Shown piece after piece: positions 32,507-35,616 of a DNA stretch of 40,720 nucleotides. The DNA is taken from positions 1 through 40,720 of the forward strand of contig NZ_WIPH01000024.1 in assembly GCF_009547075.1 (NCBI RefSeq). Direction: 5' to 3'. A model generated the notes under the pieces. It worked only from the letters and a program-made list of their open reading frames with translations, did no database searches and was not told the DNA's origin. The position numbers and the translations under genes are program-made. Positions within the stretch are counted from its first letter, which is position 1, and every line of letters starts with the position of its first letter. This stretch comes from Gluconobacter aidae (GTDB lineage Bacteria > Pseudomonadota > Alphaproteobacteria > Acetobacterales > Acetobacteraceae).

Positions 32507-33130
32507 ATGACTCTCCCACCCGAGCCCCGTCCGGAACTGCGCCCGGAACCGCGCCCGCAGCCTTTGTCTGCCGATCCCGCCGCCCGGAGCCGGGTTCTGT
32601 GGGGTGGTGGCGCTCTCATCGCGGCCCTGACAGTCGGGGCAGGCGCTTTTTTCTATACCCACAACACGGCCACATCCCCCGCCCCCGCGGTGGCGCCCCC
32701 ATCCCAGAACGTCCCGGTCGTGCCTGCCGCCCAGACCGCCGCGGTCCAGCTTTCCATGCTTCCCCCGGGGAGGGCTCCGGCTGCCCTTGCAAAGAGCGGC
32801 TTCAGTCCGGCCGACCGCGCCCGCATCCTCGCGGCGGTAAAGGACGGCAAGATGCGGCTCGTGGAAATGCCGGTTCTGGATGCTTCGGGCGCCGTCGGCC
32901 AGACCATTGACGTAACCGTTTCGGGTCTCACACAGCGCGTCGTCCTGACCGGCAGATTCCAGCATCTCGTCATTCCGATCGTCGAAGCCGGACAGATTCT
33001 CATTGCGCCGGTCAGCATCCCGCATGCGCCCGCCCTGATCGTTGGCGCCCTCACAGCCCTTGGCCCCGAAGCTCTGCCTGCCCTGACAACGCTCGACCAG
33101 CGCGTCCTACTCAATGTGATCGTCCAGTAA
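32507..33130 (+). CDS. Single-pass membrane protein of unknown function (AAA+ operon, gene 1)
   Basis: I do not recognise this 207-residue protein. It has a short cytoplasmic N-terminus of Pro/Glu/Arg repeats (PEPRPELRPEPRPQP, about 5-19), one membrane span (about 30-50) and a Pro/Ala-rich linker (about 52-80). A compact, probably all-beta and helical domain (about 85-207) contains SGFSPADRARILAAVKDGKMRLVEMPVLDASG and VSGLTQRVVLTGRFQHLVIPIVEAG. The N-in, C-out orientation follows from the basic N-terminus. Its stop codon is part of the AAGGA ribosome site of the next gene, so it is tied to the membrane AAA+ protein. A role as partner or periplasmic sensor of that ATPase is an inference from position only. 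It diverges from the rimP-nusA operon. Confidence 0.75.
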   Translation: MTLPPEPRPELRPEPRPQPLSADPAARSRVLWGGGALIAALTVGAGAFFYTHNTATSPAPAVAPPSQNVPVVPAAQTAAVQLSMLPPGRAPAALAKSGFSPADRARILAAVKDGKMRLVEMPVLDASGAVGQTIDVTVSGLTQRVVLTGRFQHLVIPIVEAGQILIAPVSIPHAPALIVGALTALGPEALPALTTLDQRVLLNVIVQ

Positions 33131-33141
33131 GGAACCGCCCG

Positions 33142-34416
33142 GTGTTCAAGTCTCTCGTGCCCATGCTCAACCGGGCCATGCCGCTGATGATGGCCGCCTT
33201 TCTCATTCTGGCGGTGATTCAGGTCGCGGTCATGCTACACCTGTCGCTGAACGGGCTGTGGGCCGCCATCGAATGGGGACGTCGTTTCTATCTTCCGCTG
33301 GCAGGTGTCAGTGCTCTGTTGGCAGTCATCGGGCTGGCGTATGAAACGTCAGCCGAAAAACTGGCGCGTCGCGGACTGCGCCGCAGGAAAGGTCTCATCA
33401 TGGATGTTCTCAGTCGTCTGACGAACCGCGGAGCCCTTGAAGAACTCATGGCACGCGAACAGCGCGAAACCGTTCTCGACGCCGACGAACTGGCCGCGTC
33501 TCTCCGCGCCCGCGTCATCGGACAGGATCAGGTCTGTGAGGATATCGCCCAGCAGATGCGCCGCCGTCTGGCCCTTCAGGTCCGCGGCAAGCCCGTGGGT
33601 ATTTTCCTGCTCGCAGGCCCTCCGGGCACCGGAAAAACCTATCTCGCCAAACAGATGGCCAGGCAGATGGAACGCCCCCTGCTGCATTTCGACATGACGC
33701 AGATGTCCAGCGCCCATGCCGCAACACAGCTCTTCGGCTCGCCCAAGGGCTATGTCGGCTCGGACACGTTCGGCAAGCTGACCGGGGGCCTCAAGGACCA
33801 TCCGGATGCCGTGGTCCTGCTCGACGAGATTGAAAAAGCCCATCCGGACGTCTTCAAGAAGTTCCTCACCGCCTGGAATGACGGCCATGTCACGGAAGCC
33901 TCCACGGGCGAACAGGTTTCGACCACCCGTGCGATCTTCATGCTGACCTCCAACGTGGCGACCGAGGCCCTGACCGAAATCGCCGATCGCCTTGCAAACG
34001 AGCCTGAGAAGATGCGCGCCGAGTCGGTCGAGGCATTGCGCAAATCCGGTTTCGCCCCCGAGGTGCTGAACCGTCTGGACCGCATTTTCATTTTCCGCCC
34101 TCTTCGCGGACTGGATCTGGCCCGCGTCGCCGCACTCGAAATCGAGGCCATGATCGAAGGCTATGGCCTGCATGTGGAAACCGGGGGCATCGATGCCGGG
34201 GTCCTGTTCCAGGTCATGGTCAAGCAGAAGAATCTCGGCACCGGCGCGAGCGCGCGCGATCTTGTCCGCTCCATCGAGGACATGGTCAGCGAAAGCCTCA
34301 TCGTCGCCCGTCAGCAGGGCGCCAAGCGCGTCCGTCTCGTCACGCAGGAGAACGGCACGGTTATCACCGAGATCGCCAGCGATACCGAAACCCAGCTCGG
34401 CCGGGTGAGCCACTGA
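33142..34416 (+). CDS. Membrane-anchored ClpB-type AAA+ ATPase without protease domain (gene 2)
   Basis: This 424-residue protein has two N-terminal membrane spans (about 12-36 and 48-67), a basic linker, and one AAA+ module most like the second ATPase domain of ClpA/ClpB. The motifs are complete: Walker A GPPGTGKT (159-166), pore loop GYVG with Y204, Walker B VVLLDE (D228, E229), sensor 1 LTSN (N271), arginine finger in NRLDR (R311) and sensor 2 GASAR (R372). Thus it should form an ATP-driven threading ring on the cytoplasmic face. It lacks the ClpB N-domain, first ATPase domain and coiled-coil arm, the FtsH zinc protease and an IGF/IGL-type ClpP loop that I can see. GTG 33142 has AAGGA eight bases upstream. 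Substrates and partners are unknown. Confidence 0.85.
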   Translation: MFKSLVPMLNRAMPLMMAAFLILAVIQVAVMLHLSLNGLWAAIEWGRRFYLPLAGVSALLAVIGLAYETSAEKLARRGLRRRKGLIMDVLSRLTNRGALEELMAREQRETVLDADELAASLRARVIGQDQVCEDIAQQMRRRLALQVRGKPVGIFLLAGPPGTGKTYLAKQMARQMERPLLHFDMTQMSSAHAATQLFGSPKGYVGSDTFGKLTGGLKDHPDAVVLLDEIEKAHPDVFKKFLTAWNDGHVTEASTGEQVSTTRAIFMLTSNVATEALTEIADRLANEPEKMRAESVEALRKSGFAPEVLNRLDRIFIFRPLRGLDLARVAALEIEAMIEGYGLHVETGGIDAGVLFQVMVKQKNLGTGASARDLVRSIEDMVSESLIVARQQGAKRVRLVTQENGTVITEIASDTETQLGRVSH

Positions 34417-34419
34417 TCC

Positions 34420-35364
34420 ATGACGGCATTCGGACGGCTCTGGCGACGCGCTCCCCTCTGGCGCACGAGCGTGATCGTAACGGTAGGCGCGCTCGGCATG
34501 GCCGCTTTCTATCCCACCCCGGCGCTCAAGAAGGCCATGCCGTGGCTTCCGGGGCACCCGCCCGGGGCGACACCGTATAATGCCGGGGCCGGAACATCAC
34601 AGCCGGATGGACAGCAGAGCACCCAGCCCGGCGGCGCTCCGGGTCTTGGAGACCAGATCGGCGTGCCCGATCCCGGCATTGCCCAGCATGGCAGCATCAC
34701 CATCGCCGGACGCACGCTCCCGCTTCCGGCCGGTGACTGGCATCCGATCCTGACGGCCCGGAGTGGCGCGCATGGCGAACTCTCCCAGCAGGTTCTGGCC
34801 CGGACCGATCGCGGTGTCGTCTCGGGCGTCATCGTCGTACGCGCCACGCAGCAGCCTGTCCCGGCCGATCTGGCGGAGCAGCTCGAAACGCCATGTCATG
34901 ACGACCGCGATTACGCCGCGCATATTTCAGACAGGCCCGGCATCTCGCAGGAATGCAGCTATACCAGCAATGCCGTGCTTGAGAACCAGAGCGTCAGCAC
35001 GGACCCGTTCATCACGGCAGCTTTTTCACGGATGCGCACACTGGGCTTTCCAATCCCGAGCCTGATGATCAATGTCGGCTGGTATTATGCAGCAGCAGCA
35101 GGTAAGGGCACCGCTCATATCGAAACGGTCGAGACGCTCGTCGCCCCGATCGAACATGGATCGCGCCAGTTGCTCGCTCCGCCGCAATACTGGAACAAGG
35201 CCTCGGTTCACAAGAACCCCGACGCCGCCCAGTTCATTGATGCACTGGACCGATGGATGATCGGCTGGTCACGGGTTCTGCGTCAGGGATTTGATGGAAC
35301 GCTGAATACGGCGGCGCTCGTGCCGCCGCTCATCAACGATCCGTCCGCGCCTCAGCCGTCCTGA
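34420..35364 (+). CDS. Single-pass protein with large predicted periplasmic part (gene 3)
   Basis: I do not recognise this 314-residue protein. It begins with a basic segment and one hydrophobic span (about 14-33, TSVIVTVGALGMAAFYP), then a Pro/Gly/Gln-rich linker (about 45-85). The folded part (about 92-300) includes SITIAGRTLPLPAGDWHPIL, SQQVLARTDRGVVSGVIVVRA, and two cysteines (TPCHDD and QECSYTS) that could form a disulfide in the periplasm. The C-terminal half is helical and aromatic (INVGWYYAAAAGKG, FIDALDRWMIGWSRVL). The start is four bases after the AAA+ stop, so the three genes are almost surely one transcript. The span is probably an uncleaved anchor. The function can only be guessed: a sensor, substrate or adaptor of the membrane ATPase. 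Confidence 0.75.
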   Translation: MTAFGRLWRRAPLWRTSVIVTVGALGMAAFYPTPALKKAMPWLPGHPPGATPYNAGAGTSQPDGQQSTQPGGAPGLGDQIGVPDPGIAQHGSITIAGRTLPLPAGDWHPILTARSGAHGELSQQVLARTDRGVVSGVIVVRATQQPVPADLAEQLETPCHDDRDYAAHISDRPGISQECSYTSNAVLENQSVSTDPFITAAFSRMRTLGFPIPSLMINVGWYYAAAAGKGTAHIETVETLVAPIEHGSRQLLAPPQYWNKASVHKNPDAAQFIDALDRWMIGWSRVLRQGFDGTLNTAALVPPLINDPSAPQPS

Positions 35365-35394
35365 ACAGCTATGGCAACGAAGAGGTACAGTTCC

Positions 35395-35551
35395 CTTTAG
35401 CAGTCTGGACTTCCGCCACTTTGCAACGCTTTTCGGGTTGATCCCGAACTTCTCCTTGCCCAGCGCCACGAACGAAGCCTGCGATCGCTGTATTGCCTGC
35501 TGCCCGCGCGGCCTGCGTGGCCGTGACACCGCCATGAGATACCTGTCCCAT
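35395..35551 (-). pseudogene. Decayed IS481-type transposase N-terminus
   Basis: Two overlapping frames on the minus strand together recall the start of IS481-family transposases. MGQVSHGGVTATQAARA is read in one frame from 35551, then AIQRSQASFVALGKEKFGINPKSVAKWRK in the next frame to about 35410. The second piece is a recognisable helix-turn-helix with the GINPKSVAKW core. A frameshift separates them and the catalytic domain is missing after KGTVP. This is a remnant only. Confidence 0.65.
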
Positions 35552-35616
35552 AAGGCTTCTTTCCACTCAGTGGACAATATCACCGGTTTTTATGTTTCTG
35601 GGATTGAAGGAATGAC

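Follow-up and report, generated by a model that had tools for sequence, protein, structure and literature searches.

Membrane-fixed AAA+ motors that thread polypeptides without a protease are, to our knowledge, few. Msp1/ATAD1 is a protease-less, membrane-anchored AAA+ motor, for which we know of no two-partner operon; FtsH-type proteases supply the idea of a membrane-fixed ring with two N-terminal spans; torsins, whose ATPase needs an arginine finger from outside, resemble the second AAA+ domain of ClpB and have the single-span membrane partners LAP1 and LULL1; and GspA/GspB (ExeA/ExeB) combine an inner-membrane AAA+ protein with a single-span partner carrying a proline-rich linker. Each of these resembles in part a locus of Gluconobacter aidae (Alphaproteobacteria, family Acetobacteraceae) that we analysed within a 40,720-nucleotide stretch, hereafter the window (assembly GCF_009547075.1, contig NZ_WIPH01000024.1, positions 1 to 40,720, forward strand). 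An original prediction from the letters of the window had described three closely spaced plus-strand genes, here genes 1, 2 and 3, as a membrane-fixed, protease-less, single-module threading motor with two dedicated partners. The open reading frames (ORFs) confirm the three genes, 11 and 3 bases apart, and gene 2 is by its sequence a two-span membrane-anchored AAA+ ATPase of the Clp/HSP100 class and second-domain type, with all catalytic motifs. The two partners behave differently: every locus with a dead ATPase lacks gene 1, and most of these loci retain gene 3. Our preferred reading, to which we assign a probability of roughly one half, is a protease-less membrane threading motor for which gene 3 would be a constant structural partner and gene 1, as adaptor or cargo, would be required only by a powered motor.

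Coupled loss of gene 1 and ATPase catalysis

A profile scan found the ATPase in 108 of 397 sampled genomes of the family (E≤1e-48), the window's own included, and all 108 were classified for ATPase motifs, presence of gene 1, order and strand. One hundred ATPases keep Walker A, pore loop, Walker B, sensor 1 and arginine finger; sensor 2 could be read in 97 of these, the matches in G327 and G307 ending short of it and the frame in G165 being broken. Gene 1 sequence lies upstream on the same strand in 99 of the 100 motif-intact genomes, with -1 to 638 bases between matched parts, and the sole exception (G208) is truncated by the beginning of its contig. The other eight ATPases are degenerate; Walker B and the pore loop are lost from every one of them, and the remaining motifs survive to differing extents (see the table below). 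Gene 1 is absent from the locus in all eight, none of which is cut there by a contig end, and whole-genome searches for it elsewhere in these genomes returned nothing convincing (E 0.02 and 0.04 in two, no match in six). Gene 3 is kept in seven of the eight. With relatedness ignored, Fisher's test of gene 1 against motif state gives p 3e-12. The ATPase does not occur widely without its partners: it stands without gene 1 only in the eight dead cases and the one contig-cut locus, and without gene 3 in 1 of the 108. The idea of two dedicated partners holds to the extent that the trio is kept together in most carriers; the equivalence of the two partners does not hold.

The degenerate state was placed on a tree of InfB, NusA and RimP with 37 rows, comprising all eight degenerate genomes and 29 of the 100 others (one of 38 loci, L049, lacks these genes and was excluded). 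It requires six changes, at least five of them forced by well-supported branches, and intact and degenerate ATPases stand side by side within three genera (G029/G116, G296/G334 and G101/G158+G201). In G101, sister to G158 and G201, the ATPase is intact and gene 1 is split over two frames; it looks as if gene 1 failed first, or the split may be a sequencing error.

Seven of the eight degenerate ATPases, all but that of G214, have an uninterrupted frame across 80% or more of the model, and these seven retain hydrophobic N-terminal windows. In the only close pair testable, G158 and G201, the dead ATPase is under strong purifying selection, with a nonsynonymous rate (dN) of 0.016, a synonymous rate (dS) of 0.29 and a dN/dS of 0.057; gene 3 of the same pair has a dN/dS of 0.058 at dS 0.20. 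Intact ATPases are constrained even more strongly, with dN/dS values of 0.012-0.037 in six of eight pairs; of the remaining two pairs, one shows too little change and the other an infinite dS. Identity of the seven degenerate proteins to the intact consensus is 40-56% in the linker before the AAA module (intact median 84%), 30-53% in the large ATPase domain (91%) and 42-51% in the small C-terminal domain (83%). The large ATPase domain lies furthest below the intact level, and the remainder appears to drift under some constraint.

Several observations weigh against the preferred reading. In the spans, the seven dead ATPases share only 23-41% identity with the intact consensus (intact median 66%), and the second dead pair, G136/G061, is saturated, which leaves selection measurable in one pair. 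G214, outside the seven, is the most eroded (L191/L111): its ATPase remnant has no spans and is accompanied by neither gene 1 nor gene 3, with identities of 0, 31, 28 and 37% for spans, linker, large and small domain. The profile behind the count of 108 includes four degenerate members, and ATPases eroded further may be missed. Gene 3 is broken in some motif-intact genomes, over two frames in G286 and G273 and over three in G126, and is cut at a contig end in G181; unless they are sequence errors, these breaks are exceptions to gene 3 as a constant partner. In G101 the ATPase is intact although gene 1 is broken. Once relatedness is counted, the coupling of gene 1 and catalysis is suggestive: the five independent pairs all point in the same direction (sign test p 0.0625), and scoring gene 1 of G101 as broken leaves four pairs with a median p of 0.125.

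The main rival is operon erosion, according to which the function became dispensable in small-genome, probably host-associated lineages, where relaxed selection let gene 1 and the active site decay jointly with no special link between them. All eight degenerate cases are genomes of 1.9-2.4 Mb; gene 3 also evolves faster in a degenerate lineage (dN 0.459 for G334/G296 vs 0.197 for G317/G296); G040 and G122, which share the genus code g41 with G214, match neither gene 3 nor, at E≤1e-50, the ATPase; and the independent pairs number only five. However, there are genomes of equal size in which the complete trio is intact (e.g. G032, G118, G317 and G029), most of the dead ATPases remain open as described above, and the gene 3 stub and cysteines (see below) are retained in all seven degenerate genomes that have the gene. 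The purifying selection in one pair and the kept stub speak against erosion as the whole story; we consider it somewhat improbable, with too few independent events to close the matter.

Conserved order and genomic setting

The trio was sought across the family, as the original prediction had proposed, and its order is retained in most carriers. Gene 3 lies directly 3' of gene 2 in 20 of 20 relatives' 20-kb loci, with gaps of -4 to 118 bases, and gene 1 lies 5' of gene 2 in 16 of them; gene 2 identity is 65-80% where gene 1 is so placed and 34-38% in the remaining four loci. The arrangement is not due to chance, because the order is kept across relatives' loci at these levels of gene 2 identity. 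Genes 1 and 2 are both present at the locus in all of the best 80 of 105 relatives found by a gene 3 scan, which overlap with the 397-genome sample and in which ATPase motifs were not scored; the genera among them are Gluconobacter, Neokomagataea, Asaia, Acetobacter, Gluconacetobacter, Komagataeibacter and kin. Divergent trios occur in a few more distant family members (L094 and L098; the ATPase frame of L096 is broken). An earlier sample gave the ATPase in 35 of 150 family genomes (E≤1e-45), and in a sample of the class it was found in 2 of 372 (E≤1e-50): the genome of the window and a relative from the same family. A gene 3 profile matched 84 of 299 family genomes, weak matches to related domains included, and 11 of 385 genomes of the class, of which nine lie outside the family and match only the outside domain of the protein (E 5e-18 to 5e-6).

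The genome of the window (3.0 Mb in 127 contigs) has a single copy of gene 2; its three other ATPase matches are long frames of 793-934 residues, probably of the Clp and Lon sort. The genes rimP-nusA-infB lie divergently upstream of the trio in 19 of the 20 relatives' loci. This constancy of place, together with the single copy, bears on the suggestion that the locus is an anti-phage defence system or other mobile cargo. The AAA+ protein does resemble several PADLOC models, the best being PDC-M37B (2.3e-24) and DolB (2e-19), but these matches fall in or beside the AAA module that such proteins share, and none of the PADLOC models matches gene 1 or gene 3; defence or mobile cargo is an extremely improbable role.

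Directly 3' of gene 3, on the minus strand of the window (35269-35583), an ORF resembles by eye a transposase fragment, and the conserved downstream block of relatives (an amino-acid ABC transporter and CcmA/CcmB-like genes, by eye) is not among the ORFs listed for the window; a rearrangement may therefore end downstream of gene 3.

The ATPase and its putative envelope partners

Gene 2 is assigned to the Clp/HSP100 class because its one AAA_2 module (residues 150-314, E 4e-37) scores 128.3 bits against a Pfam cut-off of 27 and the motif set is full. In NCBIfam it is matched best by ClpB (2.6e-50) and ClpA (1.2e-48), in both cases by the C-terminal half, with only positions 533-841 of the ClpB model covered and positions 448-715 of the ClpA model aligned; both scores are far under the models' cut-offs, and its nearest solved sequences are ClpE, ClpB, ClpC and ClpA. 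The complete module of the ClpA/B second-domain type with pore loop, Walker motifs, sensors and arginine finger is thus confirmed by the Pfam and NCBIfam matches and by the motifs. Hydropathy windows (cut-off 1.6) fall at residues 5-23, 25-43 and 49-67; an alternative start, giving 417 amino acids, is also used in public records of close relatives. No protease domain appears among the best 25 of 37 Pfam matches, and the ClpP-type loop [LIVMP]G[FL] was found between sensor 1 and arginine finger in 0 of 100 motif-intact genomes, the ClpA-like protein of the window's own genome, used as a control, having IGF; both results support the proposal of a membrane-fixed motor without a protease. In G126 (L101 9829-10792 / L181) gene 2 seems disturbed towards its N-terminal end, with ATPase motifs and gene 1 intact; in G046, sister to G126, gene 3 is in one frame.

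Four identifications of gene 2 were rejected: a ClpB disaggregase, for its single module, its 424 amino acids and its 171.7 bits against a ClpB cut-off of 1232.1; a partner of a ClpAP/ClpXP-type protease, for its missing IGF/IGL-type loop; an FtsH-type membrane protease, for an FtsH_fam score of 18.7 bits against a cut-off of 600 and no peptidase among the same best 25 of 37 Pfam matches; and a torsin, for a Pfam Torsin score of 24.6 bits, under the cut-off of 27, and its own arginine finger R311.

Neither Pfam nor NCBIfam has a family that matches gene 1 or gene 3; a match to a known family with a defined role, which would have counted against the original prediction, was not found for either. 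Gene 1 is ordered as a proline-rich cytosolic tail, a span at about residues 30-48, a disordered linker and, by model, an outside beta-sandwich domain (76-207); of its hydropathy windows, 30-48 is the span and 154-172 falls inside the beta domain. Its C-terminal glutamine is invariant in alignments A3 and A4. Gene 3 consists, by structure model, of a cytosolic stub, one span (helix 12-30), a low-confidence linker at about 46-75 and an outside alpha/beta domain; the span falls under the hydropathy cut-off of 1.6 and was placed by the structure model and inspection. The stub follows the pattern L[WR]xx[AC]xx[WF]R, and Cys159 and Cys179 probably form a periplasmic disulfide, as their conservation suggests. 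The outside domain may resemble the Mog1/PsbP fold, with middling Z scores against Mog1, PsbP/CyanoP, LpqN and Tsi3, which we take to be one fold class; the similarity implies no function, sequence identity to these four is 7-8%, and Foldseek with this domain returned nothing at E≤0.001.

Features of the trio, with conservation among motif-intact and degenerate ATPase loci
Feature	Coordinates	Strand	Description	Motif-intact	Degenerate
Gene 1	32507..33130	+	ORF of 207 amino acids
Gene 2	33142..34416	+	ORF of 424 amino acids from GTG start; single-module Clp/ClpB second-domain type AAA+ ATPase
Walker A GPPGTGKT	33616..33639	+	Gene 2 residues 159-166		1/8 in full; its GK 7/8
Pore loop GYVG	33748..33759	+	Gene 2 residues 203-206; counted as G[YF][VIM]G	100/100	0/8
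Walker B DE	33823..33828	+	Gene 2 residues 228-229	100/100	0/8
Sensor 1 N271		+	Gene 2; present		2/8
Arginine finger R311	34072..34074	+	Gene 2	100/100	3/8
Sensor 2 R376	34267..34269	+	Gene 2	read in 97/100	3/8
Gene 3	34420..35364	+	ORF of 314 amino acids
Cytosolic stub	34420..34464	+	Gene 3; MTAFGRLWRRAPLWR; short, basic	99/100	7/7 with gene 3
Cys159	34894..34896	+	Gene 3	99/100 (one gap)	7/7
Cys179	34954-34956	+	Gene 3	99/100 (one gap)	7/7

The outside domain of gene 3 is not confined to the trio, being shared by a broader family found in other settings, and to this extent the idea of a dedicated partner needs correction. This shared PLPxGxW domain, which has no Pfam name, occurs in secreted or membrane proteins of family genomes outside the 108, several per genome in most (L084-L089 and L099, in G265, G156, G290, G258, G011 and G262). 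Some of these proteins end in a DUF2061 (PF09834) membrane segment, above cut-off in L084 and L085 and just below it in L099. At L090 (8671-10053, plus strand) a domain of the gene 3 type stands behind an N-terminal part that looks by eye ClpP-like, in the manner of a periplasmic ClpP-like protease, and has no Pfam match. These contexts are not evidence for the function of the trio.

A candidate threading machine and described systems

Under the preferred reading, the three genes would make one inner-membrane machine, in which a ring of gene 2 subunits with two spans each would be held below the membrane and, judging from its motifs, would hydrolyse ATP and thread polypeptide by way of the aromatic pore loop. 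The polypeptide would be released or moved instead of degraded, because gene 2 has neither a protease of its own nor a ClpP docking loop. Gene 3, with its basic cytosolic stub, span and periplasmic domain, would be the constant structural partner, mostly kept with a dead motor; gene 1 would be the power-dependent partner, either an adaptor handing a client to the ring or a protein whose cytosolic tail the ring pulls. In a lineage no longer needing that work, gene 1 would go and the catalytic and pore residues would decay, and the leftover pair of ATPase and gene 3 might serve as a non-catalytic membrane scaffold. Since gene 3 accompanies gene 2 powered or not, and gene 1 only when powered, the simplest machine would be a membrane-fixed threading ring in which gene 3 is a permanent component and gene 1 serves as adaptor or cargo. 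A bolder version, which we hold to be quite unlikely, is a trans-envelope machine in which the Clp-type ring would pull the gene 1 tail, or a client held by gene 1, so that the energy of ATP would act mechanically upon a periplasmic domain while gene 3 served as fixed frame; on at least five occasions the motor would have been turned off and gene 1 lost, leaving a non-catalytic scaffold that is mostly retained.

Two described systems suggest other roles. As in Msp1, the ring might serve as an extractor for quality control, removing mislocalised or damaged inner-membrane proteins while genes 1 and 3 sense clients on the periplasmic side; the membrane-fixed, protease-less gene 2 with its intact pore loop and the modelled outside domains of both partners fit such a role, yet a general one leaves unexplained both the vanishing of gene 1 with catalysis while gene 3 and a dead ATPase are mostly kept and the restriction of the ATPase to one family in the class sample, and we regard it as unlikely. 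Alternatively, the layout shared with GspA/GspB would suit a helper that opens or loads peptidoglycan for the assembly of an outer-membrane structure such as a secretin. However, no secretin (PF00263) is present in the window's genome, and 16 of 18 tested genomes are without one (2 of 18 have it); seven secretin-free genomes (G000, G250, G029, G032, G317, G296 and G046) carry a motif-intact trio with an unbroken gene 1, gene 2 belongs to the Clp class, and its listed Pfam matches include no peptidoglycan-binding domain. Such a helper role is very improbable.

Returning to the threading motor, the pairing of a lost gene 1, a dead motor and a mostly kept gene 3 amounts to a natural genetic experiment in the workable genera Gluconobacter and Acetobacter. 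The coupled loss points to gene 1 for the motor's work and to gene 3 for structure, and makes the purpose of gene 1 testable. The locus is also a possible example of an AAA+ ATPase turning into a retained pseudo-ATPase, with G101 as a possible intermediate. Within the open-licence part of the literature we found no operon of the same architecture, in line with the original prediction, and no description of a membrane-anchored single-module Clp form with two dedicated partners or of repeated pseudo-ATPase conversion with loss of one partner; the three-gene set of acetic acid bacteria is apparently undescribed, its motor belonging to a known class.

Msp1/ATAD1 belongs to another AAA clade, and GspA to an AAA class different from that of gene 2. 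FtsH-type proteases share the membrane-fixed arrangement, whereas gene 2 is of the Clp class, with no metalloprotease domain among the matches listed. Torsins, to which the Pfam match is weak, lack the arginine finger and aromatic pore loop that gene 2 has of its own, and are lumenal, whereas gene 2 would be cytosolic. Gene 2 aligns to the C-terminal halves of ClpB and ClpA and shares the GYVG pore loop with their second AAA+ domain; unlike them, it is a single membrane-anchored module that dispenses with the N domain, the first ATPase ring and the ClpP-type loop.

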